From NCBI RefSeq assembly GCF_030063205.1, contig NZ_JASISQ010000004.1, positions 124,001-188,000 of the forward strand: 64,000 nucleotides of DNA. Reading direction: 5' to 3'. The stretch's first letter is position 1, and each line of letters opens with the position of its first letter. Position numbers and translations under genes: made by a program. This document shows, in pieces, positions 6,787-51,638 of the stretch. Below the pieces are notes generated by a model that worked only from the letters and a program-made list of their open reading frames with translations, was not told where the DNA came from and ran no database searches. Origin of the DNA: Arthrobacter antibioticus (GTDB lineage: Bacteria > Actinomycetota > Actinomycetes > Actinomycetales > Micrococcaceae).

Positions 6787-6822
6787 GCCGGGTAGCTGCG
6801 TTCACCACTGTTTTAGGAAAAG

Positions 6823-6854: not shown

Positions 6855-6868
6855 CGTTCCGAAGTACC
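6838..6868 (+). promoter_or_regulatory. Putative SigK-dependent promoter of the molybdoenzyme gene
   Basis: CAATCC (6838-6843), 15 bases, then CCGAAGTACC (6859-6868), identical in both boxes and in spacing to the element at 4495. It overlaps the rskA terminator hairpin and gives a leader of about 60 bases. Confidence 0.6.
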
Positions 6869-6928
6869 CATAAGTACTTCTACCGGCTAAACCGGCGGTA
6901 GACAATCAAGCGTTCTAAGGAGCCCGAC

Positions 6929-35814: not shown

Positions 35815-36507
35815 ATGACAACAGTAATTCTTGTGCGGCACGGCCGCACCACAGCCAATGCCACCGGACTGCTGGCTGGCCGGACGGAGGGCGTCGATCT
35901 GGACCAGGTCGGGCGCGACCAAGCGGCTTTGACAGGAGAACGGCTCGCGGCCGTGCCCCTAGTCGGGGTTGTTTCAAGCCCTCTTGAGCGTTGCCAGCAG
36001 ACAACTCAGCTCATCCTCGATCGCCAAGCTGGCAAGCCGAATACGCTGATCGATCCGGCTCTCATCGAGTGCGACTACGGCCAATGGCAGGGCCGCACAT
36101 TGCGTGATCTCGCGACCGAGGATCTGTGGCCGGTGGTGCAGTCGCAACCGTCCGCCGTCGTCTTTCCCGGGGGTGAATCGATGGCCGGGATGCAGGCTCG
36201 GTCTGTGGCAGCAATTCGACGCCATGATGCAGCCTTCGAAGCCGAGTACGGGCCGGAGGCCGTATGGGTTGTTGTCAGTCATGGTGACATCATCAAGTCA
36301 ATCCTCGCCGATGCGTTCGGCATGCACCTTGACCTGTTCCAGCGGATTAACGTTGGCCCTGCCTCTGTATCGATCGTGCATTACGGCGTTGATCGGCCGA
36401 GCGTCTACGCAACGAACACCACAGCAGGCGATCTATCGTGGCTTTCAAACAAAATTCTGGGTGGTGATGCGCCGGTGGGTGGCGGTGCAGGTCAAAAGGC
36501 GCCGTGA
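35815..36507 (+). CDS. MSMEG_4193-type histidine phosphatase
   Basis: 230 residues of the phosphoglycerate-mutase-like superfamily. LVRHGRT (residues 7-13) carries the phospho-acceptor His, SSPLERCQQT the second Arg motif, ECDYGQWQGR the third, and VVSHGDI the second His. With the DUF3090 and SCO1664-like genes after it, it forms a trio widely conserved in actinobacteria. The trio's substrate is unknown; in other genomes it is often next to the mycothiol gene mshC, which is absent here. Confidence 0.9.
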   Translation: MTTVILVRHGRTTANATGLLAGRTEGVDLDQVGRDQAALTGERLAAVPLVGVVSSPLERCQQTTQLILDRQAGKPNTLIDPALIECDYGQWQGRTLRDLATEDLWPVVQSQPSAVVFPGGESMAGMQARSVAAIRRHDAAFEAEYGPEAVWVVVSHGDIIKSILADAFGMHLDLFQRINVGPASVSIVHYGVDRPSVYATNTTAGDLSWLSNKILGGDAPVGGGAGQKAP

Positions 36508-36531
36508 AGCAAATGTGCCTAGACTACACAT

Positions 36532-37086
36532 ATGTCTACACATATCCACGAGTTTGACTGGCCGGATCGGGTCGTCGTTGGCACCATTGGCGTTCCGGGA
36601 ACACGTACCTTTTATCTGCAGGTGCGCGCAGGGAAGCAGATTCTCAGTATTGCCCTCGAGAAGCAGCAGGCCGCTCTGCTCGCAGAGAAGATCGAGGAAA
36701 TTCTTGATCAGCTCATCACTTTGGAGGGTAACCCCTTCAGTGTTCCCACGAGCACTCCCATTGAACTTGTTGACAATGACCAACTCGAAGCCGTCGATGA
36801 GCAGTTTCGCACCGGGGCCATGAGCTTAGGGTGGGACCCCACCACAGCCCAGGTTGTCATTGAAGCCCACCCCATCACCACTGTCGATGCTGATGACAAC
36901 GACGAATGGCTTGTAGAAGACGCCGCCAACGAGCCAGAAATGCTGCTGGTGCGCATGCCGGTCGGTACCGCCCGCGCCTTCGCTATGCGCACCCATGAGA
37001 TAGTGGGCGCAGGGCGTCCCACGTGCCCACTCTGCGGGTACCCAATGGACGCCGACGGGCACCTCTGTCCCCCTCCCGAGGCCTGA
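36532..37086 (+). CDS. DUF3090 family protein
   Basis: 184 residues, starting MSTHIHEFDWPDRVVVGTIG. The LEKQQAALLAEKIEEILD helix and the C-terminal zinc-ribbon-like CPLCGYPMDADGHLC are typical of DUF3090. It follows the phosphatase gene by 24 bases, and its stop overlaps the next start (TGATG). Biochemical role unknown; conserved pairing with both neighbours implies one process. Confidence 0.9.
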   Translation: MSTHIHEFDWPDRVVVGTIGVPGTRTFYLQVRAGKQILSIALEKQQAALLAEKIEEILDQLITLEGNPFSVPTSTPIELVDNDQLEAVDEQFRTGAMSLGWDPTTAQVVIEAHPITTVDADDNDEWLVEDAANEPEMLLVRMPVGTARAFAMRTHEIVGAGRPTCPLCGYPMDADGHLCPPPEA

Positions 37087-37853
37087 TGGCAGCGCCAAAC
37101 CTAGCGACCTCTGAGCTGACTCTCACCGGACGGATCACAACGGCTTCAAACGCTACATTCCTGGGCAGCATCGGCGATGTGGTGGTGGTCTACAAGCCGA
37201 TAGCTGGGGAAAATCCGCTGTGGGATTTTCCGCACGGAAGTCTGGCTCATCGGGAGGTGGCCGCATATCTAGTCTCGCAGGTCTTCGGCGGCGACGTGGT
37301 GCCGCATACTTGGCTGCGCGATGGTCCACTGGGCGAAGGCATGGTGCAACTCTGGCAGGAGCAAGACCCCGCCCAAAACGCCGTCGACCTTATCGCAACG
37401 GACCTTGTGCCGGAGACAGGCTGGAAATACGTTCTCGAGGGACGCGGCGAGAACGGGCAGATGGTTGCGCTCGTTCACGAAGACTCACCAGCGCTGCGAC
37501 GTATGGCGGTGCTGGACATCATCATCAACAACGCCGACCGCAAAGGCGATCACATACTTTCGATGGCTGACGGACTCCGGCACGGTGTGGACCACGGCCT
37601 CACCTTTCACCGTGACCACAAGCTGCGCACGGTTCTGTGGGGATGGGTGGGAGAGGATCTAAGCGCTAAGGAACTCGACGGCATAGATCGTGTCAGCCAA
37701 GGACTTCACGGTGAGCTGGGGCGAAATTTGACGGACTTACTCAGCGCCGAAGAAATCGCGTCACTAGCCGCGCGTTGCGCCCGGTTGCGCTTGGCAGGGC
37801 AGTTTCCGGCTCCAAGCGGTGAGATGTCAGCGGTTCCTTGGCCGCTTTTCTAA
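37086..37853 (+). CDS. SCO1664-family kinase-like protein
   Basis: 255 residues, start ATG 37086 fixed by the TGATG overlap with the DUF3090 gene. It resembles the phosphatidylinositol 3/4-kinase-like fold: VVVYKPIAGE is the ATP-lysine region, and the catalytic-loop-like part is DIIINNADRKGDHIL, followed by HGVDHGLTFH as metal loop. The target is unknown. It is the last conserved core gene before the island begins. Confidence 0.88.
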   Translation: MAAPNLATSELTLTGRITTASNATFLGSIGDVVVVYKPIAGENPLWDFPHGSLAHREVAAYLVSQVFGGDVVPHTWLRDGPLGEGMVQLWQEQDPAQNAVDLIATDLVPETGWKYVLEGRGENGQMVALVHEDSPALRRMAVLDIIINNADRKGDHILSMADGLRHGVDHGLTFHRDHKLRTVLWGWVGEDLSAKELDGIDRVSQGLHGELGRNLTDLLSAEEIASLAARCARLRLAGQFPAPSGEMSAVPWPLF

Positions 37854-37985: not shown

Positions 37986-38022
37986 CCAGCGGCTCAGACG
38001 TTGAAGCGGAACTCCACCACGT
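37986..38022. other. att-like site A1 (copy of the ychF 3' end)
   Basis: 37 bases identical to the 3' end of ychF at 50545-50581, including the stop codon and 8 bases beyond it. Read on the minus strand it encodes VVEFRFNV and a stop. It marks the distal end of the island. With copy A2 the identity extends 5 bases further left (GCAGT). Confidence 0.85.
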
Positions 38023-38409
38023 TCCGTAATCGAATAATCTTTGGGCCGCCGGTTCACTCTCAGCAACCTTCTATCCTCCGGCCTCCAACTCATCTGATTT
38101 CTGTTCTCCGCACGACGTCGGCTCAAAACGCTCAGCCACGCCGCATCCTACAACTCCATTTTCCGAAAATCGCACCAATAACACTTTTTACCGCTAGTCC
38201 GCTGTGAACACCCGATGTTCATCCCGACCCGGTAAGCGTCCGACTCCGGAACGGCCTAAGCACAGTTCCTGCCGCTCGTCCCACGTAGACTCCGCCGCAA
38301 CGACTCCTCCAACTGATCCGCCAGTACCAGCAATCCAGTTTCAGATTGATTTGGCAACCTGTGCCATTACGTCGCGCGCGGTTCCGTTCGACGTTCCCGG
38401 CCACCTAAA

Positions 38410-38979
38410 GTGAGCTTTGGATTCCAGCAGCTCAAGCCCGTACCTGAACCAGAACCATCCATGTCCTTTCTACTGTCCATGGTGATTGCCGTTGTGACCT
38501 TGATCATCGCCTGGATGACATTCAAGGTGTCGAAGGAGAGCAGAATTGTGGCCGAGCAAGGCCACAGGACGTCACAGGAGTCCCTACAAGTGGCCAGCAA
38601 CGGCTGGAAGCAGGTGGGCCGTGAAGAGCCGTGGTCCCTTACCAAGCTAGATAAGAACAACTGACCCCTGGAACACCTGCACTATAGCCCTGCTGCCATT
38701 GTTGCTGCGGCTGAAGCGTCGCCACTTTTCAGAGGCTCTCCTGTGAACTTCCAAAACCCTGCCGGGGCACCGGTGTCAATCTCCCGCAGCGGAGCAAAAG
38801 TTGTCCTGGAAATTCCGTCAACGAACCCGGGCGCCTCCCTCACCCTGTATTACCGTGAGTTCGCTGAGACCGAAGCTGTTCCGACATGGAATCAGCTGTA
38901 CTTTGCCGGCAACGACTGGACGACGGCCCAGTACTGCGCAGCTTGGGGCTTCTGCCACCGCCCCACCACGTCGCCTTAG
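38410..38979 (+). pseudogene. Broken copy of the island membrane-protein gene
   Basis: Same frame and sequence as the intact gene at 42441-43124. It is interrupted by TGA at 38662-38664, where the other copy has TGG in YWLLE. Relative to the intact copy it lacks 33 residues before the membrane helix and a short repeat (VAEQS-type) after it, both in frame. The normal stop has become a sense codon, adding about 14 residues. The start is GTG here and ATG in the intact copy. Probably no functional product. Confidence 0.85.
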
Positions 38980-39131
38980 CCGCCTAGCCTCAGACTAAGG
39001 TTTCACCCTGCCAATTTGTCACGGAGCCACTGTCTGTTCGAATCGCGATACCGAAAGCCCCGAGATTAGCTCGGGTGGCGAAGCACCGACACCAAAGCTT
39101 GTGTCAAGCCCCGGGATTGGTGGAGGGTTTA

Positions 39132-39263
39132 TTAGACCCGTTCCAGCGTTTTGAGGGCAGGTAGATTTGAGTTGTAGTTGGCTTCTTCTTCGACTGGCGG
39201 GATCTATCCGATTTCTCCGTGGAGTCGTCGGTGGTTGTACAAATCGATGTACTCGTCGACGCC
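39132..39263 (-). mobile_element. IS3-family transposase remnant (3' end of orfB)
   Basis: On the minus strand the frame reads EYIDLYNHRRLHGEIG, then a TAG at 39204-39206, then IPPVEEEANYNSN and a TAA. This is the C-terminus of an IS3-type transposase. The upstream part and both terminal repeats are gone. It lies just after the end of the direct repeat and shows past insertion activity. 39264-39366 holds nothing recognisable. Confidence 0.8.
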
Positions 39264-39366
39264 TAAGCATAGGCATCTGCCGAGCGTACCGCACGAGCCG
39301 GCAGCCACGGCTGTGGCATCAACGGCCCAGACGAGAAATGAGCGATCCGCCCAATTTATGCTCTAG

Positions 39367-40029
39367 CTAATCGATGATCCTGACGGCGTCGATTACGTCC
39401 GCGGCGTGCAGTCGGTGCACCGTGGCCTGCCAGTAGTCTCTTGTGCCAAAATTCGTACTGTCGAAGATGCACCCCCAGGACTGCTCGGCCTCCTCAACCA
39501 AGGCTGCGGGCCACTGACTGATCGGAGTGTTGACCACGCCGGCGGCCTTGAGACGCGCATGGAAGCCGTCGTAAATCTGATCCCAACGCTTATCGAACTC
39601 GTCTTCTGGCTCTCCTGGCCACTTCGGGATCGCCAGAGTCGAGTTGAGCACGGAATGCCATTCATCGAAGTGCGACAGAAGGACCCTTTCCCGAGGAATC
39701 CTGCAGGTCAGCAGGACCTGGCTCCGAGCACGACGACAGTCTGCGACCAGATCGACCCGTCGAATCTTTGCCCACAACCACAGCGCAGCATCACCAGACG
39801 TGGGCAACTGCGCTGCCATCATCCGGCCCATCCAACCATACGCCTCTGACAAGAACGGATCCGCCAGAGCCGAGTCCGGCCACAACACCTCTGTTGTCAA
39901 CAGTTCCTCGAACGCGGCACGCGTCTGGATCGTGTGCAGGAGTAAAACGTCAGCGTGCAGGTCATGGGCGAGCCTGCCCGGAGGTACAGCCGTCTCTGGC
40001 GCAGCGGATCGAATCGGAAACGGTGGCAT
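39367..40029 (-). CDS. DUF3841 protein
   Basis: 220 residues. LLHTIQTRAAFEELLTTEVLWPD, then FLSEAYGWMGRMM, LWLWAKIRRVDL and RVLLSHFDEWHSVLN are the DUF3841 landmarks. The family has no known function and is scattered in bacteria. The start is placed at ATG 40029 (MPPFPIRS), where similarity begins; the frame stays open to 40296 but would cross the divergent gene. It faces a small zinc-ribbon-like gene across a 67-base gap with an inverted repeat. Confidence 0.75.
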   Translation of the reverse strand: MPPFPIRSAAPETAVPPGRLAHDLHADVLLLHTIQTRAAFEELLTTEVLWPDSALADPFLSEAYGWMGRMMAAQLPTSGDAALWLWAKIRRVDLVADCRRARSQVLLTCRIPRERVLLSHFDEWHSVLNSTLAIPKWPGEPEDEFDKRWDQIYDGFHARLKAAGVVNTPISQWPAALVEEAEQSWGCIFDSTNFGTRDYWQATVHRLHAADVIDAVRIID

Positions 40030-40049
40030 GAGCACTATTCTGCCGTACC

Positions 40050-40076
40050 GCACCGACAACCCTTGCTTGTCGGTGC
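40050..40076. promoter_or_regulatory. Inverted repeat between divergent island genes
   Basis: GCACCGACAA (40050-40059), seven bases, then the exact complement TTGTCGGTGC (40067-40076). It sits in the middle of the 67-base gap between the DUF3841 gene and the zinc-ribbon-like gene, so it could be an operator serving both promoters. Confidence 0.55.
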
Positions 40077-40096
40077 TTCCGACTAGAGTTACCGTC

Positions 40097-40315
40097 ATGA
40101 GCAAAGATAATTTGGACATCGTAAAAATAGAAGAAGCGATCCTCCAGAAAGAAGAGGACATGAAAGCCTGGTGCCCGTCCAGTGGTGAGAACGTGGGCCG
40201 CATGATCGAGTCCTCCGCCACCGACAACTGGTACATCGCGTGCCCCACCTGCGGGGTGCGGTGGGCCGGTGGAAGTACAGTGCTTTCCGACCACACAAGG
40301 CCGGGCTACCGGTGA
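40097..40315 (+). CDS. Small zinc-ribbon-like protein
   Basis: 72 residues. An acidic/basic N-terminal helix (DIVKIEEAILQKEED) precedes WCPSSG and CPTCGVRW, which could bind a metal with three cysteines. It starts at ATG 40097 and diverges from the DUF3841 gene. No family is recognised. Between its end and 40506 only broken coding traces are seen. Confidence 0.5.
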   Translation: MSKDNLDIVKIEEAILQKEEDMKAWCPSSGENVGRMIESSATDNWYIACPTCGVRWAGGSTVLSDHTRPGYR

Positions 40316-40506
40316 TCAACATCGAATAAGCCGAGGCTGGGATCATCCAACGGCGGTGAGACACTGCACCGACGGGAGCAAAGTCGAGCCGGAAATTCCC
40401 CTATCGTCCGTGGCCGTGAGTTCGCTGGGTGGGAACCTGCTCAGCCGCTGTCGAATAAAGGCAAACGAAAGGCGGAGCGAATCGAACACGCGCGGAACAC
40501 GTCTGA

Positions 40507-41121
40507 CTACGAGACCCGCTTGTTCGACTGGATCGAAAACTCTGGGGACTCACTTGCCGGGTACGAATCGTACGTCTTGTCTATGATCTCGCCCTTTAGC
40601 GGGATCAGCATCCCAGCGACGGCGAGAAGTTCCTCCTTGTCATCGAGCTCGGGTTCGTTAGCGTCGCCGATCTCGGTATGACCAAGCTCGAACCTTACTG
40701 TGCACCACTGTCTGCCTCGATAGTCGAGCTTCGCGTCGAAGGGTTGCATGACGTACACCGTGGGAACGGCTGGCGGTCGAGGTGCGGCTTTCTCTACCAA
40801 TCGCCCGGTGAACCCAGCCTAACCTTCCTCCAAGGCAGCCTAGAAATCGCTGTGGAATTGAGCCAGTGTCTGGTTCCGTGCGGCGTCGAGGTCCTTGGTA
40901 AACCGCGTCCCCTACCCATCACGCAGCGCCATAGCGCTACCATCCTTGATTACTCCCCCGGGGAGCGGCTGGCCAACGACGACCAAGGCCATGCAGATCC
41001 TACGCCGTTGGGCCAACCCGTCGTCACCTTCGATGGTGCGGATTCGTCGCTCTAAGGAGTGCATATTCGTCCGCGTGTCCGTGTACGTCACTTCTTGAGT
41101 CCTTTTTTCACTCACTGCCAT
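40507..41121 (-). pseudogene. AbiEii-like nucleotidyltransferase toxin with three in-frame amber stops
   Basis: One continuous frame of about 205 codons, interrupted by TAG at 40912, 40840 and 40819. Read through, it gives VIKDGSAMALRDG, TRFTKDLDAARNQTLAQF, GFTGRLVEKAAPRPP and YVMQPFDAKLDYRGRQWCTVRFELGHTEIGDA, matching AbiEii/AbiGii toxins. The nucleotidyltransferase GG has become DG. The C-terminal part after GDANEPE does not look like the family, so the 3' end is probably replaced. The start overlaps the AbiEi antitoxin stop by 10 bases, as in working operons. Confidence 0.8.
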
Positions 41122-41630
41122 TCGGTGGTAGTTAACAACCCTTCCGCCCGCGCCTCTTTAGTGGCATTCACTAGGCGTTCAGTCTCGACACGCCCAGGAC
41201 ACTCAAGGAGAGCATCGGCAACGCGTTGCGCGGCAAGTCCCTCATAGACAGTCCTAGGTGCGCCCCCTCTCACCTGTGTCAGTTCAACGAATGAGGGCAG
41301 CTTCGGCCGCGCGCGTCGCGGAACGGCCACTTTGATCCGGCGAGGGTTGACATCGGCGAGCCCGAAGAAGGCCAGCACCGATTCCCCATGGAGGTATGCA
41401 CCCTCACCTACACGCAGGAGAGCCTCAGCAAACTGGTCATAACGGGTGGGTGGGACGTCCGGCACGCGGTACAGTCCGTAAGCGACATTCTCCAAACCGC
41501 CCCTAGCGGCCAGTTTGGGGAGCTCAACCGCGGGAACGCCTGCCTCGATAGCTTCTTTTGTGCTGACATACCCGTAATGATCGAGCGCTAGCTCACGCAC
41601 GATGTCTCGGTACTTCGCGCCTGCAACCAT
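41112..41630 (-). CDS. AbiEi-family antitoxin
   Basis: 172 residues from ATG 41630 (MVAGAKYRDI); the frame is open to 41681. It carries the AbiEi winged-helix domain (YVSTKEAIEAGVPAVELPKLAARGGLENVAYGLYRV) and the C-terminal antitoxin part (EALLRVGEGAYLHGESVLAFFGLADVNPRRIKVAVPRRARPKL). In type IV systems this protein represses its own operon and neutralises the nucleotidyltransferase AbiEii. The toxin gene next to it is broken, so this is an orphan antitoxin. Confidence 0.85.
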   Translation of the reverse strand: MVAGAKYRDIVRELALDHYGYVSTKEAIEAGVPAVELPKLAARGGLENVAYGLYRVPDVPPTRYDQFAEALLRVGEGAYLHGESVLAFFGLADVNPRRIKVAVPRRARPKLPSFVELTQVRGGAPRTVYEGLAAQRVADALLECPGRVETERLVNATKEARAEGLLTTTEWQ

Positions 41631-41636
41631 GTTACA

Positions 41637-41656
41637 ACTAAACCGAAATCGGTAGT
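41637..41656. promoter_or_regulatory. Dyad upstream of the AbiEi gene
   Basis: ACCGA-AA-TCGGT with outer ACT/AGT, seven bases before the AbiEi start. AbiEi proteins are known to bind inverted repeats in their own promoter, so this is a candidate autoregulatory site. Confidence 0.45.
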
Positions 41657-41951
41657 GTTGTGACGAGCCAGCGCTTTTCATGACGATCTATAAAACTAAG
41701 GAATACAAGCTTGGAGAGGACAGCGCCGTCAAGTATAAGTGCCACAACCAGAAGTTCTTTGACGGTGCTGAAAACACTTGGGACGAAGCCGAGGAAGTCG
41801 TGGAATCGTGAGGTGCTGACTATCCGATCACGTTTGATTGGCTTAAGCAATACCTATGAGCCCAGCGTCAGCAGGATGCACCATTTCAAGGCCACACGGT
41901 GTCAGATAAACCAATGATTTGCCACCCATCTTAGGCCACACTAGCGGACTA

Positions 41952-41986
41952 AGACGCCCTGGATGCTCGAAGCATCCAGGGCGTCT
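41952..41986. terminator. Strong hairpin before att-like site A2
   Basis: AGACGCCCTGGATGCT (41952-41967), loop CGA, exact complement 41971-41986. It lies 11 bases outside att-like copy A2. In ychF orientation it would be a terminator directly after the ychF-like end. The stretch 41657-41951 has only a 43-codon ORF of doubtful status (41680-41811). Confidence 0.85.
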
Positions 41987-41997
41987 CACAAAGCAGT

Positions 41998-42034
41998 CCA
42001 GCGGCTCAGACGTTGAAGCGGAACTCCACCACGT
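41998..42034. other. att-like site A2 (copy of the ychF 3' end)
   Basis: 37 bases identical to the ychF end at 50545-50581 and to A1. It separates the AbiE-containing segment from the DUF5677-containing segment. On the minus strand it encodes VVEFRFNV and a stop. Confidence 0.85.
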
Positions 42035-42440
42035 TCAATAATCGAATAACCTTTGGGCCGCCGATTCGCCCTCAGCAACCTTCCCTCCTCCGGCCGCCAA
42101 CTCATCTGATTTCTGTTTTTTTCACACCTTGTTGGCTCAAAACGCTCAGCAACGCCGCGCCCTACCGCGCCGTTTTCCGAAAATCGCACCAACAACACCT
42201 TTTTACCACTAGTCGGTTGCGAACGCCTGATGTTCATCCCGACCCGGTAAGTGTCCGACTCCGGAATGGCCTAAGCACAGTTCCTGCTGCGGTTGCTTGT
42301 CCCATGTAGACTCCGCCGGAGTCCGCCGCAACGCCTCCTCCGACTGATCCTGCACTACCAGCAATCCAGTTTCCTATTGATTTGGCAACCTGTGCCATCA
42401 CGTCGCGCGCGGTTCTGTTCGACGTCCCCGACCACCTAAA

Positions 42441-43124
42441 ATGAGGTTTGGATTCCAGCAGCTCAAACCCCTACCTGAACCAGGACTATCCATGCATTTT
42501 CTACTGCCCATGTCGCTCGCCCACCTCTTGGTGACACAGGAGACCAAAAATGCTGTGATCGCATTCTTGGACACGTCCGTGCATTTCATCTCGGGCGCAC
42601 TGCCCACGGTGATTGCCGTTGTGACCTTGCTCATCGCCTGGATGACATTCAAGGTGTCGAGGGAGAGCAAGCTCGTCGCAGAGCAGAGCAGAATTGTGGC
42701 CGAGCAAAGCCACAGGACTTCACAGGAGTCCCTACAAGTGGCCATCAACGACTGGAAGCAGGTAGGCCGTGAAGAGCCGTGGTCCCTTACCAAGCTGGAT
42801 AAGAACTACTGGCTGCTGGAACGCCTGCACTATAATCCTGCTGCCATTGTTGCTGCTGAAGCGTCGCCACATTGCGGAGGCTCTGCTGTGAACTTCCAAA
42901 ACCCTGCCGGGGCACCGGTGTCGATCTCCCGCCGCGGAGCAAAAGTTGTCTTGGAAATTCCGTCAACGAACCCGGGCGCCTCCCTCACCCTGTATTACCG
43001 TGAGTTCGCTGAGTCCGAAGCTGTTCCGACTCGGAATCAGCTGTATTTTGCCGGCAACGCCTGGTCCGACGAAGGCGTTGCTGCCAGGGATGGCTCCAAC
43101 GACTGGACAACGGCCCTGTACTGA
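42441..43124 (+). CDS. Island membrane protein, intact copy
   Basis: 227 residues. A hydrophobic region at about 34-75 (the helix TVIAVVTLLIAWMTFKV is clearest) is followed by a short repeat, SRESKLVAEQSRIVAEQS, of coiled-coil character. A soluble C-terminal half contains REEPWSLTKLDKNYWLLERLHYNPAAIV. No known family is recognised. The layout of membrane anchor, coiled coil and soluble domain suits a sensor or a membrane-acting effector. The start may be ATG 42441 or an internal Met; no good ribosome site is seen. A broken paralogue lies 4 kb upstream. Confidence 0.6.
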   Translation: MRFGFQQLKPLPEPGLSMHFLLPMSLAHLLVTQETKNAVIAFLDTSVHFISGALPTVIAVVTLLIAWMTFKVSRESKLVAEQSRIVAEQSHRTSQESLQVAINDWKQVGREEPWSLTKLDKNYWLLERLHYNPAAIVAAEASPHCGGSAVNFQNPAGAPVSISRRGAKVVLEIPSTNPGASLTLYYREFAESEAVPTRNQLYFAGNAWSDEGVAARDGSNDWTTALY

Positions 43125-43316
43125 GTAGCTTGGGGCTAGCCACCGCCCCCACCACGTCGCCTTAGCCACCTAGCCTCAGGCTACGGTTTCACTGTGCCGA
43201 GTTGTCACGAGGCCACTGTCCGTTCGAATCGCGATGCCGAAAGCCACGAGATTAGCCCGGGCGGCGAAGCACCGACGCCAAAGCTCGCACTTCCCGCATA
43301 GCCACATATAGAAACG

Positions 43317-44987
43317 TCACGAGTCCAGACCCTCATCGCCAGATGCCACTGATGGCTCGTCGGCGTTGTCCATCCAGGCGAAGGCTTCACTTACTGCGTC
43401 CTTGTCAGTCCCCAGGATGCCCAGTCCCGCGCGCACGAGCGAGTAGAACTGCTCAACCCAAGAAGCAGCTAGCTCAACGTTGCCACCCGGGTTCAGGGCG
43501 ATGCTAGGAATGAGGTGCATTCCGTGGAGAACATTCAAACAAGGCTCCATTGCGTGCGTTTCGACTGACCACCATTCCGAGTGCACTACCCCACTAGACA
43601 GGGAGTATGCCTGTCGGTAGAAGTCCAACATGCCGGCGTCCTCCGCCATCGCACGAATCGACTTGCCCTCTGCAAAGGTGTCGCGAGTATCAACTGTCCG
43701 GTAATCGAGCACGTCGTGATTGCGGCTGAGGCGCTGAAGCTCGTCGATGCTCTCTCGAAAGCCCTCGGTTCGCGCATCGTCAGGCAACTCATCCGAGATG
43801 CGTGCGTAGAGCTTCGCCTTCCCTGCTCCATATTCTTGGAACTGTCTATAGATGGCCGGATCCTGCCGTGCCATCCAGTGGAGATAGATCTTTGTCTCCA
43901 CCAACATGCGCCCGATATGCGCACCATGTTCCATGCACCACAAATCGGGAGCCCCCAGCACCGCCATGACATCACGCCCTGCGCGGGACACAAGCCCGGA
44001 AATGACTTCCTGCCGTTCGTTGTCATACAGGTGGGCCGGGGCGGTCTCCAGCGCCTCAACGAAGCTGCTCATAACATCCATCGTGAACCCGCGCAGATTC
44101 TCGCCGCCCGCGGGCACGGAAGTCGGCTCAGTTTGATCGGAGCTGACGGCTGATGCAGCTTGCCCGTCAAGTTCGCCGTCGGTCGACTCCGTAGGGCCGT
44201 CGTCGGGACTGTCGACATCCCCCTTCCGAATACACCCGGATGTCATAGAGTTTGCTCCCCAAAACACACGTGCCCACTTGATCGCTTCATCGAAGTAGTT
44301 CGGATCATCGACTTGCAGTATCGCTTTGTGGGCACCCCAGGAAGCACGCACCAGGGAATCTGATGCCGCTCGGTTGGCCAAATTGCCCGGATAATCTTTT
44401 AGAAGCTCGATCGTTCGAGTGTCAGCACTGAAAGTTCCTGCTTGAACCGCACTCCATGTTCGCAAGCACTTCAGGAGCGCCTCGCGGTGACCATCGCGCA
44501 AGACTGATAGCAGCGCATCTCTAATCAGTTCGAGGGCCGGCCGCTCCGGTGGTACGACCTCGGTGTCGTCGACAAGCCACGGAGCCGGCAAACATGGGTA
44601 CGAGGCCAGCGCGCTGCGAACGACTTCAGAGAGTAGGCAATGTCGATGGGCTTCGTCAACGATGATCTCGGATGCGTCAGGAAACTTCACGGCCAGTGCA
44701 GCCAAGTGCGTGAGGCGTCCGTCTAGCGCTTCCGCGACCGATACTTCATCTCCATGGTGCGCAAGTCGTTCCTGTACAGCTTTCTGCCACTTCACGAAAT
44801 ACCGGAAACTGGCATCACCCTGCTCAGCCAGGACAAGTGCGGGCCAGAGGAGATCTGGGAAGTCGTCCTTGATCCAGTTCCCCATAGCCAACATCCCGGT
44901 CGCTGCGAGCGGGGTTTTGAACACGCGGCCCTTTCGCACATGGCCGTCCATAGGCCCTGAGTGTTGGTTTGCCTTAGGAATGCTCAT
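43317..44987 (-). CDS. DUF5677 domain protein
   Basis: 556 residues in two parts. The N-terminal 250 residues are helical and unassigned (MGNWIKDDFPDLLWPALVLAEQGDASFRYFVKW). An acidic, low-complexity linker follows at about 255-300, then a DUF5677 domain at about 335-515 (HIGRMLVETKIYLHWMARQDPAIYRQFQEYGAGKAKLYARI, later SSGVVHSEWW). DUF5677 proteins are helical, often lie in mobile or defence regions, and have no proven activity. No membrane helix or signal. It converges on the membrane-protein gene, with about 190 bases between. Confidence 0.75.
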   Translation of the reverse strand: MSIPKANQHSGPMDGHVRKGRVFKTPLAATGMLAMGNWIKDDFPDLLWPALVLAEQGDASFRYFVKWQKAVQERLAHHGDEVSVAEALDGRLTHLAALAVKFPDASEIIVDEAHRHCLLSEVVRSALASYPCLPAPWLVDDTEVVPPERPALELIRDALLSVLRDGHREALLKCLRTWSAVQAGTFSADTRTIELLKDYPGNLANRAASDSLVRASWGAHKAILQVDDPNYFDEAIKWARVFWGANSMTSGCIRKGDVDSPDDGPTESTDGELDGQAASAVSSDQTEPTSVPAGGENLRGFTMDVMSSFVEALETAPAHLYDNERQEVISGLVSRAGRDVMAVLGAPDLWCMEHGAHIGRMLVETKIYLHWMARQDPAIYRQFQEYGAGKAKLYARISDELPDDARTEGFRESIDELQRLSRNHDVLDYRTVDTRDTFAEGKSIRAMAEDAGMLDFYRQAYSLSSGVVHSEWWSVETHAMEPCLNVLHGMHLIPSIALNPGGNVELAASWVEQFYSLVRAGLGILGTDKDAVSEAFAWMDNADEPSVASGDEGLDS

Positions 44988-45482
44988 ATCAGGAATCTAC
45001 CTGACTTGATCCGACATAGCTGTTGGTGACCACCGGCATCGATTTTGCGACAGCCTCCCGCGGATTGCCACGAACGTGAAGAGCATCTAAGTCCGCTGGG
45101 TTCATTCGAGCTAAGAGACCCGCAGTCGAATGCGTTAGTGCCCAGAGGCCAAAACGCGAGTCTAAACTCCACCACGTCGCCGCACATAACAACCACTGAA
45201 GTGCAACGAGTCAGAGAGCCCGGACTTTGTGAGCTACCGCATGCGCACGCTAGCTCCGGCAGACAGAAGTATCTGGCGACCACGCGTCACTTGGACGCGC
45301 TTATAGGTCGCTCAATGGGTGGCAGCTCGACGCTGGTGAACGCGAAAGTACGTAGTGCTGCGAAAAACGGGCACAGTTCAAAACGCGTTCAATGCGAGGC
45401 TCCCTTCGCAGGCAACATACTGTCGTACCAGTACGTCACAATAAGGTTGTTTGAGTTGCGAAAACTGGAGTGAGGTCCGTAA
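44988..45482. other. Intergenic region with degenerate att-like site A3
   Basis: No convincing gene in 495 bases. It separates two divergent island genes, so both promoters should be here. At 45165-45182 AACTCCACCACGTCGCCG is identical to the ychF end, and CATAAC follows as in ychF. On the minus strand this encodes VMC-GDVVEFRL, compared with [12 protein letters not shown] in YchF; the codons for FR differ (TTTAGA, not TTCCGC). Confidence 0.6.
45165..45190. other. Degenerate att-like site A3
   Basis: AACTCCACCACGTCGCCG plus CATAAC, matching codons near the ychF stop apart from a small deletion. TCTAAACTCCACC (45161-45173) is also shared with site A4, but not with ychF. Confidence 0.55.
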
Positions 45483-47447
45483 TTGAGTGAAGAGGAGATG
45501 GCCCCGCGGCGGGTTAAATTTTATGGCATACATGATATGGCAACAGGTTGGCAGATCCCACGCGTAGCTGAACTTGCTGAGCGGTTCGACCCCGAGAACG
45601 TCCCGATGAACGTCGATGACATCCTTGAGCTTCACAATGTGCAGCAGTACCTCGAACAGGGGTTATTTTCGACCGCCTACGACGAAGTGGAACATAACCG
45701 GGCCAAGTCACGGATTCCCCAGATGCGTAGCACAGTAGCGCGGTTCTTTTCGGCGGTCAACAACACGAACTTTGCAGCCGTAGTAGTTGGTGTCGGCCAC
45801 GAGTATCGCGCAGACCTTCTGGATCTCCTCGGTCGGAACAATGTTTTCGAGCGCTGCGACAGCGTGGTGGTTCTTCCCGCGCTCGCCGCTACTGGTGTAC
45901 GTCTAGCTTCGATGCTCGCAAGTAAGAAGCTCGTACAAGCCTACGACACCGCGTTGCGAGACGAGCTCAGTGCATCACCTCGTGGTGCAGAGAATCTGAT
46001 TCGAAAGTATCTGCAGGAGGATGTGCGAGAAGAAATACATCTTCCAAGAAGTTTCACGTCAGTCGATGCTCGCGAATTGCTTGAGAGCTACGTCGACAGC
46101 GAGGACGCGAACCCGAACTACATCGGGCTTATTGCGATCGCTAACGAGAACACTAAGGCAGGAATCGACGCCAAGCTCAAGTTGCGAGCGAAGCGTCGCA
46201 AAGCTGAGATGAACGTGAAATACTTCAGCGAGAACGAAGGATTCAAAACTGGATACGAGGTGGGTATCTCCGACTCCCAAGATGAACCGGTCGAGTTCAA
46301 AATGGACACTTCAGATGGAATGGTCTCCCGGTACACGTTCAGCAGACAGTGGTTGGAGGAGACCATCGACAACCCCAGTATTCTCAACAACTTTCAGCAC
46401 CTGTTCGAATTTGTGGACCGTCAAGTGCTGCTGACTCTTCCGGCCTACCCGGCGAATCTGGGCGTCATGGAACGAATCATGGGTACCACTGGAAAGACCG
46501 AGTACAAGGTCGGCGCTGCGTTTCAATCCGTCGACATGGTTACCCGACTCCAGACCCGTCTGTACCTTCATTTCCTCGAGTCAAAGGACATCGACTTTGA
46601 GCATGTCATCTCCTGGTTCTTCGAGGAGTACCTCGTTGAGGAGTTCGGAGTCTCGAACTTCTCATTCAGCCCCTCAGACAGGGGAACCTCATACCTCCAG
46701 AAGGTTAGGCACGTATTCGCTGAGATAGAAAGCGTTGCAAACCAATTCACACTTTTCGTAAGGGACGGCGACCTCGACCGTGACTTGCTGGCCATGGAAT
46801 CCCTTCAGGTCCGATACAAAGAGGTACCGAGCCTCCTCAAGGGAAAGTACGTCTATCCATCCGAAGGTGAGGAGATTGTTGGCATCCTTCATCTCTTGTT
46901 CTCCGACCAGTCGTCGCTGAGTTACATCAACACGAACCTGAATGCGGACAACGCATCCATGCTTCTACTGGAAAACCGGGTGTCGTATGACGACTTTGAA
47001 GAGTATCAAAAGCCAGGCGTCGACTACCTGATTAAACATGGAGTTCTTGAGGACAACGGAGCTCAGGTTCAGTTCGTGAGCGTAGAGCAATTCCTCATCT
47101 TCAAGGCACTGTTCGACACTCAAGCAGCCAGCTACTACCACCTATCTGACGCCGGACGAGCAGAAGCGGAGACCATGGTGGCGAAGGGCTGGGTGACGCG
47201 CGGTTCCTCATTGTTGACCGAGGCCGAAGGTAAATACTTCAACTACTTTCTCAATGGGGTGGACTTCAGTAACGGGCCCCAGTTGCGCAATAAGTACCTT
47301 CATGGTTCGCAAGCCAACTCCGACGGTGAGGATGCGCACTTCACCACCTACATCACGGTACTGCGACTGATCGTGGCTTTGGTTATCAAGATGAACGACG
47401 ATTTTTGTCTCTCCTCGCTTGAGTCGAACCCGGAGGGAATCAGCTAA
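45483..47447 (+). CDS. Large protein with C-terminal HEPN-like RX4H motif
   Basis: 654 residues, no signal or membrane helix, family not recognised. The N-terminal part begins KFYGIHDMATGWQIPRVAEL. The middle is alpha/beta (FAAVVVGVGHEYRADLLDLLG). The C-terminal 100 residues end LRNKYLHG (R602 to H607), the RX4H form of the HEPN RNase motif with the common Asn after Arg, followed by a hydrophobic helix as in HEPN folds. An RNase effector is therefore inferred. TTG 45483 has GGAGTGAGG upstream; ATG 45498 is the alternative. It is alone in its segment. Confidence 0.65.
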   Translation: MSEEEMAPRRVKFYGIHDMATGWQIPRVAELAERFDPENVPMNVDDILELHNVQQYLEQGLFSTAYDEVEHNRAKSRIPQMRSTVARFFSAVNNTNFAAVVVGVGHEYRADLLDLLGRNNVFERCDSVVVLPALAATGVRLASMLASKKLVQAYDTALRDELSASPRGAENLIRKYLQEDVREEIHLPRSFTSVDARELLESYVDSEDANPNYIGLIAIANENTKAGIDAKLKLRAKRRKAEMNVKYFSENEGFKTGYEVGISDSQDEPVEFKMDTSDGMVSRYTFSRQWLEETIDNPSILNNFQHLFEFVDRQVLLTLPAYPANLGVMERIMGTTGKTEYKVGAAFQSVDMVTRLQTRLYLHFLESKDIDFEHVISWFFEEYLVEEFGVSNFSFSPSDRGTSYLQKVRHVFAEIESVANQFTLFVRDGDLDRDLLAMESLQVRYKEVPSLLKGKYVYPSEGEEIVGILHLLFSDQSSLSYINTNLNADNASMLLLENRVSYDDFEEYQKPGVDYLIKHGVLEDNGAQVQFVSVEQFLIFKALFDTQAASYYHLSDAGRAEAETMVAKGWVTRGSSLLTEAEGKYFNYFLNGVDFSNGPQLRNKYLHGSQANSDGEDAHFTTYITVLRLIVALVIKMNDDFCLSSLESNPEGIS

Positions 47448-47640
47448 ATGGAACCTGCATCGTTCGTACTGTTTCTGTGTATGCCCTCGTGGCGCGCAGA
47501 AGGACCTGCATAGAAACGAGGTTCCTTTTAGCAACGACGGCTGACGCAGACAGTCGCCGGACTGTGCGTCCCTTGTTCTAACCATCTGGCCAACTGAAGC
47601 CAGCAGGTCCCCACGACTTCTTGCCGCCGGAAATGGAAAT

Positions 47641-47673
47641 GCCTGGAATGTAAAAGCATTCCTGGCATTTTTT
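47641..47673 (+). terminator. Rho-independent terminator after the HEPN-like gene
   Basis: GCCTGGAATG and CATTCCTGGC form a 10-base stem with one T-T mismatch around loop TAAAAG, followed by ATTTTTT. It ends about 40 bases before att-like site A4. The stretch 47448-47640 holds nothing else. Confidence 0.8.
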
Positions 47674-47710
47674 ACGGTCTAGACCGAAGCGGTTCTATAC
47701 ATTAGATCTA

Positions 47711-47728
47711 AACTCCACCGCGTTCCGT
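47711..47728. other. Degenerate att-like site A4
   Basis: AACTCCACCGCGTTCCGT resembles the start of A1 (AACTCCACCACGTTCCGT), one base different. On the minus strand it reads RNAVEFRSNV followed by TAG, close to the YchF ending VVEFRFNV. The codons differ from ychF, so it looks like a diverged or foreign ychF end. Confidence 0.5.
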
Positions 47729-47914
47729 TACAGACCAACCTCTGGGATCTACAAATCTCCCGAGCCTCCGGAAAGGAGTAGATCAGTCACTTGACCCGCG
47801 GTATCGCGCACTACGCTAGCCTCGAAGCACCTCGCCACCTGGCATGGGCACCCGCATCGGAGCGGCATCAAACCGGGGGCGGGGCACACGGCGGGAGAAT
47901 CGGCCTGGTGGCGC

Positions 47915-47951
47915 TTGAGCGTCAGTGCCTTACCCTATGATTGGGATAAGG
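47915..47951 (+). promoter_or_regulatory. Putative promoter and operator of the ImmA/PIN operon
   Basis: TTGAGC (47915-47920) and TATGAT (47936-47941) are 15 bases apart. An imperfect dyad, CCTTACCC...GGGATAAGG (47928-47951), covers the -10 box. The first protein has an N-terminal HTH, so autoregulation through this dyad is plausible. The rest of 47729-47914 shows nothing. Confidence 0.45.
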
Positions 47952-48003
47952 CCACCCTCACCCCGGCCGCCGCCGCTTACTGCTACCCACGGAGGTGACC
48001 GCA

Positions 48004-49137
48004 ATGGCACGCGCACCCATCAACGGGGCCACGCTGACATGGGCACGCTCCGTCATGCACCTGAACGCCCAGGACGTAGCCAGCGCGGCTGGCACGACCC
48101 TCGAACGGACACTTGCATTTGAGTCCGGCGACGAGATGCCGACCCTCAAGCAGCTAGAGAAAATTGCTAAGAAGTTGGACCGGACCATGGCCTTCTTCTT
48201 CGCTCCTCCACCGGTGTCCACGGACGTCCCACAGACCGCTGACTTTCGTGGACGTGAAGCGGGACCCCTTCCGCCACTTCTGGCCCGCGAGATGCGCCGC
48301 GCGGAACAGCACCGTGACACCGTGCTAGACCTCCAGGGAGCCCCGGATCAGACAGCCCGAGTGAGTTCCATCGCTTGGGACTCTCACCGCAAGCGTGCCA
48401 GCGAGCTCCGTACCCAGCTCGGTCTCCGTGAGGAGTTTGTACCCCCCGAGAACGGTCAGAACCAGGTGCTGAACTTCTGGAGGGGGTTACTGGAGCACCA
48501 TGGCTACCTCGTGTTCCAGACGACTAAGGTGCCCCTCAGCACCTTCCGAGGTCTGTCCATCCAGCACGAGTCCCTGCCAATCATCATCCTCAACGGGTCC
48601 GATTCCAACAACGGCAAGGTGTTCACCCTTTTCCATGAGGTGGCACATCTCGCCAACAGAACCAGTGGCCTGTGCGACCTAGATGAGGATGTGAACGAAG
48701 AAGCCATAGCTAACGCGTTCGCAGCGAACTTCCTCATGCCCCACAAGCAGGTCACGGCAATGGTGCAGATGTTGGATGGGGAGCCGGCCGACTTGGCGTT
48801 CAAGGTGGCGGCGCGCTTCAAGGTCAGTTTCCTGGCCGCAGGCATCCGCCTCCGAACCCTGGATGTCATTGATGACGATGAATTGGAAGCCATCTGGCAG
48901 AAGAGTGACGATGTCTGGGCAAAGAGTCGAGAGGACCAGAAAGCAAGACCCGGCGGGCCCGCCCCCTGGCGCGTGCGTTACCGAGACCTGGGTAGCACCT
49001 ACATCGGCACCGTGGCACGCGCCGTGGAGGACTCCCGAGTTGACTGGATGGATGCCAGCTACCTCCTGAACGCACGCATTCCCATGGTCAGACAGATGTT
49101 TGAGGAGTATTACCGGAATGAGGGGAGTAGCCAGTGA
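48004..49137 (+). CDS. XRE / ImmA-IrrE metallopeptidase family protein
   Basis: 377 residues. Residues 5-65 are a Cro/C1-type HTH (LTWARSVMHLNAQDVASAAGTTLERTLAFESGDEMPTLKQL). The C-terminal part is an ImmA/IrrE peptidase with HEVAH in TLFHEVAHLAN and the downstream Glu in EEAIANAFAANFLMP. ATG 48004 has GGAGG eight bases upstream. The stop overlaps the start of a PIN-domain gene. HTH-ImmA proteins joined to DUF4411 PIN genes are a recurring toxin-antitoxin-like pair in which this protein should be the regulator or antitoxin. Confidence 0.88.
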   Translation: MARAPINGATLTWARSVMHLNAQDVASAAGTTLERTLAFESGDEMPTLKQLEKIAKKLDRTMAFFFAPPPVSTDVPQTADFRGREAGPLPPLLAREMRRAEQHRDTVLDLQGAPDQTARVSSIAWDSHRKRASELRTQLGLREEFVPPENGQNQVLNFWRGLLEHHGYLVFQTTKVPLSTFRGLSIQHESLPIIILNGSDSNNGKVFTLFHEVAHLANRTSGLCDLDEDVNEEAIANAFAANFLMPHKQVTAMVQMLDGEPADLAFKVAARFKVSFLAAGIRLRTLDVIDDDELEAIWQKSDDVWAKSREDQKARPGGPAPWRVRYRDLGSTYIGTVARAVEDSRVDWMDASYLLNARIPMVRQMFEEYYRNEGSSQ

Positions 49138-49595
49138 GCTACACCCTCGATTCCAACATTCTCATTAACATGGAACGGCTCTACCCTCGTGACATCTTCC
49201 CGTCACTTTGGGCTTCCATCGAAAGCCTGGTTGGCCAGGGCGAGGCCTGCATCTGTGAAGCAGTCCTCCGCGAGTTGGAGCGAGGTGATGACGACCTCCA
49301 CACCTGGGCAAAGAACCTCCACGGGTTCCTATGCACAACGCATCAAAGCGAGGTGCTGACAGTGGCGGCAATCACCCAGGCCCACCCCGGATGGGTGAGC
49401 GGGACCCAGAACGATGCCGACCCCTGGGTCATTGCCCATGGACTACAGGAGCAGCGGACAGTCGTTACCGAGGAAAACCTGAAAGGCCCCAACACCCCAG
49501 ACCGAAATCAGAAGATTCCCAACGTTGCCCTAGAACACGGGGTAGCCACCATGAAGTTCTTCGGATTTGTCAAGGCGAAGGGCTGGACCTTCTAG
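49134..49595 (+). CDS. DUF4411 PIN-like RNase toxin candidate
   Basis: 153 residues. The PIN-type acidic sites are visible: LDSNILI (residues 5-11), then EAVLRELERGDDDL, then NDADPWVIAHG and VVTEEN. The ending LEHGVATMKFFGFVKAKGW is the DUF4411 signature. The start overlaps the metallopeptidase stop by four bases (ATGA), so translation is coupled. Single-stranded RNA cleavage is the known activity of PIN toxins; for DUF4411 it is inferred. Confidence 0.85.
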   Translation: MSYTLDSNILINMERLYPRDIFPSLWASIESLVGQGEACICEAVLRELERGDDDLHTWAKNLHGFLCTTHQSEVLTVAAITQAHPGWVSGTQNDADPWVIAHGLQEQRTVVTEENLKGPNTPDRNQKIPNVALEHGVATMKFFGFVKAKGWTF

Positions 49596-49598
49596 CCG

Positions 49599-49772
49599 CT
49601 ATGCACACCGCGGAAAGAACGCGGGGGCTGGATCTTGGTTTTTCTTGATGGCCCCGTCTTCGACCATTTCACGATACTTCGCAGTCACGCTGGTGTCTGG
49701 ACGGCAGCGCCACGGAACCGCGTAGATGACGAAGCCTTCCCGAGATAGCAGGCTCCCAACCTGACCAGCTAT
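49599..49772 (-). pseudogene. Gene remnant downstream of the glycosylase gene
   Basis: An open stretch of about 57 codons on the minus strand without a clear start: GQVGSLLSREGFVIYAVPWRCRPDTS, then TAKYREMVEDGAIKKN, then a TAG. Composition looks coding, but no family is recognised. It is probably the 3' end of a lost gene; a very short real gene is the alternative. Confidence 0.35.
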
Positions 49773-49812
49773 GCGTCAACAGCATGAATCACTCGGAGAT
49801 CGATCTGCGTTG

Positions 49813-50361
49813 TTAGCGGTCCAGAAAGGCCGCCAACCCATGCCAGTAGTCGACAGGTGGCCTCTCGAGCCCATTCACTCCCTTGAGCGGCCTCGTAGCG
49901 GGGTTGGCTGAGGAAGTTGACGGCAGGACAAACACGAGGCTTTCGCCCACCGCCCAATCCTGGGGGCCGAAGTGAACGTCTCCGAAATACCCGATGAATG
50001 AACCAAAGGATGCTTCCACACCGAGCTTCCCGGCGAAAGCTACGACTTTGGGCCGGAGGGTTGTGAGGCGGTCAATCAGGCCCTTACAATCAAAGCTGTC
50101 GCTTTGCTCCTCGCTGCCATCCATGCCAGCATAGGTCTTGCTGAGGTCGGTCAGACCGATCCCAAAGACAGGCAGTAGGTGGTCGTCGGTCGGCTTCAGC
50201 AGATTTGGGGTGAACCCAGTCTCGTGTAGCCAGCGGTAAAACCGGTTGCCGCCGTTGCTGTAGTAGTGCCCGGCTTCGGCGCTCCTCTTACCGGCGGATG
50301 CGCCAACAAAGACGACGCCAAGATCGGGGCCCATGATGTCCGGAAGCTTCTCCCCCGCCAC
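49813..50361 (-). CDS. MUG-like uracil/mismatch-DNA glycosylase family protein
   Basis: 182 residues from GTG 50361, chosen because AAGGAGG lies four bases upstream; the frame stays open to 50478. Family marks: VVFVGASAGKRSAEAGHYYSNGGNRFYRWL (first active-site region) and VFVLPSTSSAN (second motif). In classical MUG the first motif reads NPG; here the Asn position is Ala (GASAG), so catalysis may be altered. It lies 180 bases from the ychF stop, inside the last island segment, convergent with the PIN gene. Confidence 0.75.
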   Translation of the reverse strand: MAGEKLPDIMGPDLGVVFVGASAGKRSAEAGHYYSNGGNRFYRWLHETGFTPNLLKPTDDHLLPVFGIGLTDLSKTYAGMDGSEEQSDSFDCKGLIDRLTTLRPKVVAFAGKLGVEASFGSFIGYFGDVHFGPQDWAVGESLVFVLPSTSSANPATRPLKGVNGLERPPVDYWHGLAAFLDR

Positions 50362-50544
50362 ACTGCCTCCTTCAGGTTGCACCGTTTCCCTCGCGAGCAA
50401 GTAGGCACGTTCTGGACCTATTATCACATGTCCAGACCATCCACCGATTCCGCATAGAGGGCGGGGCTGCAGCCGCAATTAGCCACCTCAGTCAGCACAG
50501 TGAGACCGAGCCCAACACGGACGACTCTTGCACCGCAATCGTCA

Positions 50545-50581
50545 CCAGCGGCTCAGACGTTGAAGCGGAACTCCACCACGT
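50545..50581. other. att-like site A5 (the ychF 3' end itself)
   Basis: The last 27 coding bases of ychF, its stop codon at 50553-50555 and 8 bases beyond. The same 37 bases recur at 41998 and 37986 in the same orientation. This is the chromosomal anchor of the island. No terminator hairpin follows ychF here before the glycosylase gene. Confidence 0.85.
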
Positions 50582-51638
50582 CGCCGTCGTGCATAACGTA
50601 TTCCTTGCCCTCAATACGGACCTTGCCCTTGGCCTTGGCCTCGTGCATCGATCCAGCTTCTATCAAGTCATCAAAGTGGACAACTTCAGCCTTGATGAAT
50701 CCACGCTGGAAATCTGTGTGGATAACTCCGGCTGCCTGCGGAGCTGTGTCACCCTGACGGATGGTCCACGCGCGCGTTTCTTTCGGACCTGCCGTGAGGT
50801 ACGTCTGCAAACCAAGGGTGTGGAAGCCAACGCGGGCCAGCTGATTCAGGCCTGATTCCTCTTGGCCACTCATCTCGAGCATCTCCCTAGCCTCCTCCTC
50901 ATCTAGCTCAACGAGGTCGGATTCCAGCTTGGCGTCAAGGAAAATCGCGTCTGCGGGAGCCACAAGTTCACGCAGCTCGGCTTGGCGCTCCGGGTTGGCC
51001 AGAACTGCGTCATCAACATTGAAAACATAGATGAAAGGTTTGGCCGTGAGCAGGCTGAGCTCGGCCAAGTGCTCCATCTCCAGCTTGTCGCTCTTGATGG
51101 AAGCAAAGATGGTGTCCCCGCGTTCAAGGACAGTCTGGGCGGCCAAAATTGCCTTCAACTCGGCTGCATCGCGCTGCTTGAGCTTGACAGCCTTTTCCAA
51201 GCGCGGAATCGCCTTTTCAATGGTCTGCATATCAGCCAGAATCAGCTCTGTATTGATGGTTTCCATATCGGAACGGGGGTCAACCTTACCGTCCACATGA
51301 ATAACATCGGGATCGTCGAAGACCCGGATGACCTGAGCGATCGCTTCAGCCTCGCGAATATTGGCCAGGAATTTATTGCCCAGCCCTTCCCCTTCCGAAG
51401 CGCCTTTGACAATTCCTGCGATGTCAACAAAAGACACCACTGCAGGCAGCAAGCGCTGCGAGCCGAAGATCTCAGCGAGCTTCGCCAAACGGGGATCGGG
51501 CAGGCTGACGACGCCAACATTGGGCTCGATGGTGGCGAACGGATAGTTCGCTGCGAGCACGTTGTTGCGAGTCAGTGCGTTGAAAAGAGTTGATTTGCCG
51601 ACGTTGGGCAGTCCGACGATGCCAATTGTAAGAGCCAC
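50553..51638 (-). CDS. ychF: Redox-regulated ATPase YchF
   Basis: 361-residue Obg-family P-loop protein that prefers ATP, binds ribosomes, and affects oxidative-stress responses. G1 [15 protein letters not shown] (residues 8-22), [17 protein letters not shown] (G3), NVDD (the altered G4) and a C-terminal TGS domain ([26 protein letters not shown]) are present. The C-terminus [10 protein letters not shown] is complete. Its 3' end doubles as the island's att-like site, so repeated integration has kept the protein intact. Confidence 0.95.

Follow-up and report, generated by a model that had tools for sequence, protein, structure and literature searches.

How does a row of small gene cassettes, none of them with an integrase of its own, come to stand behind the 3' end of a conserved gene? 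The question is raised by ychF of Arthrobacter antibioticus, in a 64-kb stretch of contig NZ_JASISQ010000004.1 (hereafter the window). An identical 37-mer lies on one strand at 37986-38022, 41998-42034 and 50545-50581, an exact match to the three co-oriented copies of the original prediction. Two diverged copies had been overlooked, AACTCCACCACGT, exact at 45165-45177, and AACTCCACCGCGT, with one mismatch at 47711-47723, so that there are really five attachment (att) copies and four cassettes. The unit itself, taken at first for the ychF end plus eight bases, is really a 50-bp site with a left half foreign to ychF. We consider it likely, on comparative sequence evidence, that the array is a train of integrase-less cassettes at a serine-integrase site in the ychF 3' end, the cassettes being passengers of ychF-specific elements.

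The site recurs in the window more often than expected. At ≤2 mismatches there were six window matches against 1.59 expected, a number reached by 0 of 100 shuffles, and one of the six (at 9437) is unrelated. Exact copies of the 16-mer core are confined, across the 3.79-Mb genome, to the three places already named; six further hits carry two mismatches each, one of them being the 45-kb copy. A 50-column model found five matches in the genome, all inside the array, with four of these window sites being among the 37 sites used to build it.

Each site consists of a left half P (AGAGGTTGNTCNGTGCCGGAAC), a core and a right half B' made of the C-terminal codons of YchF. Among 179 unique sites, the flanks hold 0.01-0.15 bit per column, and the conserved block extends from columns 0-2 to the stop codon at column 50. 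The conserved left half runs AGAGGTTG...GGAAC and is non-coding; the right half encodes YchF's last 12 residues, with variation at the third positions of codons, which would be expected had each copy once been the end of ychF. Counting ychF's own ends, the 72 loci that contain a ychF 3' end have 187 sites, every one of them on ychF's strand and 0 on the opposite one.

Across 245 sites, columns 18-25 were strongly linked among themselves, as were columns 35-47, with linkage near zero from one block to the other; columns up to 25 were unlinked to columns from 29 on, and from linkage alone the exchange can be placed anywhere from column 25 to column 35. At the left ends of six cassette pairs with 97.6-99.1% identity, the last difference fell at column 25 in three of six and at column 16 in one, and of the five right ends that could be compared (that of L083/L092 not being counted), four had their first right-side difference at column 29. 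Judged by the cleanest cassette pairs, exchange thus maps to columns 26-28. In G019, a genome of the same species, 98% identity to the window begins at column 26 of the cassette-3 site and continues for 9 kb, and the identity returns in ychF up to the core; the arrays between differ, G019 having a different proximal array joined at the same core.

Homologous recombination between short ychF-end repeats, needing no site-specific enzyme, would have 25-37 bp of identity between copies to work on, and uneven exchange would give the differences within halves that some cassette pairs show. We nevertheless give it very little credence, as conservation of the left half, which is not ychF sequence, extends across the family and into other orders, breakpoints are clean in most of the closest pairs, and serine integrases are found at the mirror junction described below.

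Which enzyme might act here was suggested by the anatomy of the halves. The half-site motif is AGAGGTTG at positions 19-26 in P and AGACGTTG at positions 14-21 in B', that is, 5 bp nearer the centre in B'. This offset was seen before we consulted the published rule, according to which serine integrases cross over at the dinucleotide in the middle of the site, and the zinc-ribbon motif of attB is placed 5 bp closer to the centre than that of attP (PMC3783163, accessible part). Because the crossover falls at columns 26-28 and the motif stands 5 bp further out in the left half, a large serine integrase was suspected.

At its ychF junction, G019 has the mirror image of the P half in the mirror position, and for that reason the mirror half, P', was sought in other genomes. 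Among 395 genomes it occurred exactly in G099, G053, G214, G116 and G209 besides G019, and in 15 of the 20 stretches fetched after this search ychF was joined to P'. Serine integrases of 449-570 amino acids (aa) were present in nine of these 15 loci, and one more locus (L177) has a fragment. Typed by script, 8 of 15 ychF-P' loci carried a serine integrase compared with 0 of 49 ordinary ends (Fisher p 1.5e-6); the script's 15 include G019, and L191 was not typed. Left out of the test were the eight untyped of 72 loci (L032, L069, L074, L075, L085, L091, L109 and L191), among which a serine integrase occurs only in L191, a ychF-P' locus. All three integrases scanned contain PF00239 and PF07508, the Resolvase and Recombinase domains. 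In L188 and L189 the integrase gene starts beside attR, and the left and right flanks together again read YchF's last 12 residues. The claim of site-specific exchange at the ychF 3' end, with that end regenerated, is supported, and the integrase-bearing elements that the original prediction suggested looking for at ychF exist. Matches to the G166 integrase were absent from plasmid records, and phage matches to two ychF integrases were all <60% identical.

Two side observations concern these junctions. In the occupied state (ychF-P' loci such as L174, L175 and L179), YchF receives a different C-terminus (EFRHGITS...). Furthermore, L017 (G019), L184 (G452), L191 and L180 have second P'-type half-sites after the ychF-P' junction, and for this reason trains may also grow on the attL side.

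A helper together with its passengers is found in G166. The element adjoining ychF in this genome encodes a serine integrase, a MobA/VirD2-like relaxase, a NikA-like protein, a D12 methyltransferase and a TnpB-like gene, the integrase and relaxase marking it as an integrative mobilizable element (the only one so classed). The next P-B' sites follow at 21.1, 23.2, 27.6, 32.8, 36.8 and 37.5 kb of the joined stretch, giving five P-B'-capped intervals after the element, with the conserved trio of flank genes described below between the fourth and fifth sites. G166 is the composite that the model requires, in full form in this one genome only. A ychF-P' junction in G214 is accompanied by an integrase fragment, and three P-B' sites follow 33 kb further on.

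From these parts the following cycle can be proposed. An autonomous element, mobilizable or similar, would recombine its attP (P-P') with the chromosomal attB (B-B') to form attL (B-P') and attR (P-B'). Were excision to pair attL with a more distant P-B' site, the element would leave with the cassettes between; later excision through the nearest attR in a new host would leave these cassettes behind and restore the B-B' ychF end. Repeated rounds would build up trains like that of the window, in which a P-B' site caps every cassette. The window genome would represent the released state, and its cassettes would wait for a helper, since a ychF-type serine integrase was not seen in that genome. A cassette may first have been made by an aberrant excision that captured genes beside ychF in some host. 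Movement in trans, proposed originally to account for the missing integrase, is supported as the likely explanation.

Several points weigh against this passenger reading. At ≤3 mismatches, 56 of the 395 genomes match the mirror-half pattern, many of them weakly or through unrelated sequence; many loose matches trace to a single recurring sequence that is unrelated or to the left half in reversed reading, and a reversed control pattern matches 11 genomes by hand count. The ychF-P' loci were picked by site and the B-B' loci by site matches, so that the comparison is not an unbiased survey. An intact serine integrase is missing from the fetched sequence of 6 of the 15 ychF-P' loci, L177, L183 and L184 among them, which were fetched at <20 kb. 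The ychF integrases are 32-84% identical to one another, a range overlapping the 22-37% identity to them of other large serine recombinases of the family's genomes, and their tree neither establishes nor contradicts a single origin (two changes; 46% of bootstrap trees with one). At the site itself, ychF's own left half, inspected by eye, is without the motif. Among the six closest pairs, two have left ends with differences inside the right half, L063/L066 at columns 26 and 29 and L084/L103 at columns 29, 32, 38 and 47, and four pairs at 90-95% identity may differ in either half; exchange was therefore not always at columns 26-28, or halves were replaced afterwards. Finally, attR does not recombine with attR in the serine integrases studied, so that cassettes should not move alone.

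In a further explanation, serine integrases would move cassettes singly in trans through a non-canonical P-B' x B-B' reaction rather than as passengers. Single cassettes 98-99% identical between genomes with otherwise different arrays would fit such a reaction, as would integrase-free loci that, G019 apart, hold these two site types only. We regard it as unlikely, however, because such pairings do not recombine in the studied enzymes (PMC3783163, accessible part), and because passenger transfer followed by loss of the rest yields the same pattern.

Other recombinases were weighed as well. The array loci scanned contained no intact tyrosine recombinase and none of the IntI type, just a 92-residue fragment in L078, while the same model finds the integrase of the satellite phage MulchRoom. 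Small serine recombinases gave three hits, one of them inside an array (L033, G002). In 8 of 20 array genomes scanned (G164, G048, G107, G249, G042, G223, G161 and G207), the only Phage_integrase-family matches are two each, Xer-like by score. A tyrosine recombinase family beside glnA was rejected as the enzyme, being found in 18 of 245 genomes, and the other tyrosine integrases of the window genome were set aside. MulchRoom, a Streptomyces satellite phage (L108, OQ784832), has a tyrosine integrase at 6514-7269 and a ychF 3'-end attP at 7336-7379; its site is without the left half, and we treat it as a separate user of ychF rather than the same system. The accessible part of its description neither names the site nor uses the words attP or attB (PMC10690885).

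These results bear on two explanations built on tyrosine recombinases. An integron-like system, with a resident tyrosine recombinase acting on any pair of sites and single cassettes moving as circles, would suit the array anatomy, the median interval of 1,707 bp, the varied cargo and the integrase-free arrays. It is highly unlikely in our estimate, given the eight genomes with just two Xer-like matches and the restriction of the candidate common within the genus to 18 of 245 genomes; in addition, the frequent differences at columns 24, 25 and 29 would misfit the matched 6-8-bp overlap of a tyrosine recombinase at the centre. Exploitation of the host's XerC/XerD, as by dif-using elements, would make use of the sole candidates of that class in the same eight genomes, but a fixed Xer arm would not be expected to vary at codon third positions as the right half does, and a dif-like arm is not evident, leaving this explanation extremely improbable.

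The window array can be read from ychF (50553..51638, - strand), the target gene, whose last codons form the right half B' and whose product is present in 23 of 23 genomes of the genus. The chromosomal ychF site is of type B-B', its left half being ychF coding sequence (50553..50602, -; E 5.4e-9, columns 16-49). Cassette 1 (47745..50552) carries a UDG-superfamily gene (49813-50478, -), a DUF4411 gene (49134-49595, +) and an ImmA/IrrE-type gene (47995-49137, +), followed by a P-B' site (47695..47744, -; E 1.4e-12). Cassette 2 (45199..47694) has one main gene, a PDC-S56 phage-defence candidate (45483-47447, +; E 9.4e-249), and the right half of the next P-B' site is decayed (45149..45198, -; E 1.1e-8, match 45158-45198, columns 1-41 only). 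Cassette 3 (42056..45148) holds a DUF5677 gene (43317-44987, -) and a 227-aa open reading frame (ORF; 42441-43124, +), and the P-B' site after it (42006..42055, -; E 4.8e-12, match 42007-42055) is the homology breakpoint with G019. Cassette 4 (38044..42005), also present in G019, contains AbiEi (41112-41681, -) and DUF3841 (39367-40296, -) genes. The distal P-B' site (37994..38043, -; E 4.8e-13, match 37995-38043) adjoins a conserved kinase-like gene, which is followed by a DUF3090-like and a histidine-phosphatase gene; this conserved flank (35815..37853, +) forms the right boundary in the genus. The name DUF3090 is our presumed one, and the kinase-like gene is called SCO1664-like after the original prediction.

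To the right of the copies at 37986 and 41998, a further ~1.2 kb is common to both (in pieces of 83.1% and 85.6% identity), making cassettes 3 and 4 relatives at their distal ends. This common end spans 38044-39099 and 42056-43285, the 227-aa ORF of cassette 3 is shorter in cassette 4, and the other cargo differs. The ImmA/IrrE-type gene (Peptidase_M78) has an RmrA-like score and the DUF5677 gene a weak DitA match. At the sensitivity used, no integrase was found inside the window array, as originally claimed; its cassettes carry att sites and are without integrase and transfer genes.

Among relatives, the array is variable at a fixed address. In 17 of the 23 genus genomes, at least one full site lies downstream of ychF and, where the kinase-like gene was seen, before that gene. 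In G010 and G013 the SCO1664-like gene directly follows ychF, the empty site that the original prediction proposed to look for; G009, G016, G017 and G020 carry inserts that are short or decayed, or reach a contig end. The number of cassettes, likewise proposed as a check, differs among genomes: 237 of 245 genomes of the family match the model (many through ychF's own end only), 125 with at least two matches and 24 with at least five, up to a maximum of 13, where one match may be ychF's own end.

Beyond the family, left-half patterns had exact matches in Rhodococcus, Phytoactinopolyspora, Microbacterium, Brevibacterium, an Actinomycetales bacterium, Demequina and Saccharopolyspora, and a further site in Nocardia farcinica; all eight loci hold at least two matches in series, ychF's own end being counted where present. 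In a phylum sample, mostly from outside the class among the rows listed, 19 of 159 genomes matched, and of those outside the family none but G300 and G400 reached two matches. Three plasmid records matched the site, one (Nocardia farcinica) over most of its length; four phage records matched, none across most of it, and four pattern scans of viral contigs returned 0, 0, 8 (chance) and 0 matches. Twenty more stretches comprised 18 flanks without a site and the ychF loci of G174 and G186 (L151 and L152), which have sites; one serine integrase occurred among them, in G137, ~10.6 kb beyond the last site there and linked to none.

A few loci depart from the usual layout. In L061, L065, L033, L021, L035 and L076, sites also lie beyond the hisP gene, as if the kinase-DUF3090-histidine-phosphatase trio were inside the array. 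On a second, 385-kb contig of G001, a 218-aa ORF (L045, 9321-9977) holds the last 98 YchF residues, a second copy of the target end, joined by our reading of the sequence to an apparent Tn3-type transposase end. A human gut contig filed as phage (L124, MT836021) has the whole of ychF, then an apparent HigB-type gene in a cassette-like position.

Near-identical cassettes recur in distant hosts: Brevibacterium and Nocardia (L104/L109, 99.1% over 1,347 bp), G036 and Microbacterium (L084/L103, 98.2% over 1,529 bp), G048 and G217 (L083/L092, 98.9% over 4,106 bp), and G011 and G229 (95.3% over 1,847 bp). Of 1304 ends of shared stretches of at least 300 bp, 372 fall ≤40 bp from a site, against a background of 3.5%. 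By these comparisons, cassettes move between genera and orders as core-bounded units. In total, 73 loci comprise 244 sites and 173 intervals with the median given above. The main ORF runs with ychF in 90 intervals and against it in 78, and five have no qualifying ORF; as main ORFs run both ways, cassettes probably bring their own promoters. G019 has a type I restriction-modification set with a GmrSD-type gene. The description of the cargo as defence- or toxin-like does not cover all arrays, as many ORFs elsewhere look toxin-antitoxin or metabolic, including SDR-, NUDIX- and RibD-like ones (by sequence reading rather than family calls).

Arrays of this kind resemble several known systems in part. 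Staphylococcal cassette chromosome (SCC) elements use serine recombinases at the 3' end of a conserved gene, and direct repeats bound their composite islands; gene, host phylum and recombinases are different here, and the recombinase is absent from the arrays as far as seen. In cis-mobilizable elements (CIMEs) and accretion islands, integrase and transfer genes are lost and att sites kept, and the units stand in tandem at a host-gene end beside an integrase-bearing element (PMC5704250, accessible part). Integrase-less units with att sites are likewise stacked at a gene end here. In contrast to CIMEs, the ychF arrays reach 13 site matches per genome, extend over the family and several other orders, and have a median interval of 1.7 kb with varied genes; moreover, in the scenario of that review a new element enters attR, which for a serine integrase should not be a substrate (PMC5704250, same part). 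Integrons and clusters of attC sites lacking integron integrases (CALINs) share the mobile cassette array, the single site orientation, the varied cargo and the integrase-free arrays (PMC9024848, accessible part), whereas ychF arrays are without an integron-type integrase, have a 50-bp, partly protein-coding site and target ychF. With large serine integrase systems they have in common the short core, a P half of ~25 bp, the motif shifted by 5 bp in the B half and the Resolvase and Recombinase domains (PMC3783163, accessible part), but differ in their tandem P-B' trains of passenger cassettes. A published account of ychF cassette arrays was not found in the open-licence literature; the pneumococcal prophage with ychF downstream and a 14-bp repeat, in the part of PMC6375853 that is accessible, is a different thing.

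Together, these comparisons suggest that ychF arrays are CIME-like trains on a serine-integrase site with an integron-like effect. We also lean, with less assurance, towards a broader reading, namely a gene-exchange platform across Actinomycetes and serine-integrase analogue of the integron, in which ychF would be the dock, P-B' units the cargo and helpers the means of moving runs between orders. The 50-bp tag turns the discovery of defence genes into a simple search, and the ychF integrases, whose att sites can be read from the data, are candidate tools for actinomycetes. If the platform reading is true, Actinobacteria, in which complete integrons are reported to be lacking (PMC9024848, accessible part), have an alternative to them, with one chromosomal address, a tag that finds cassettes in any genome and a testable enzyme family, and helper elements would spread defence and metabolic genes between the orders of this group.

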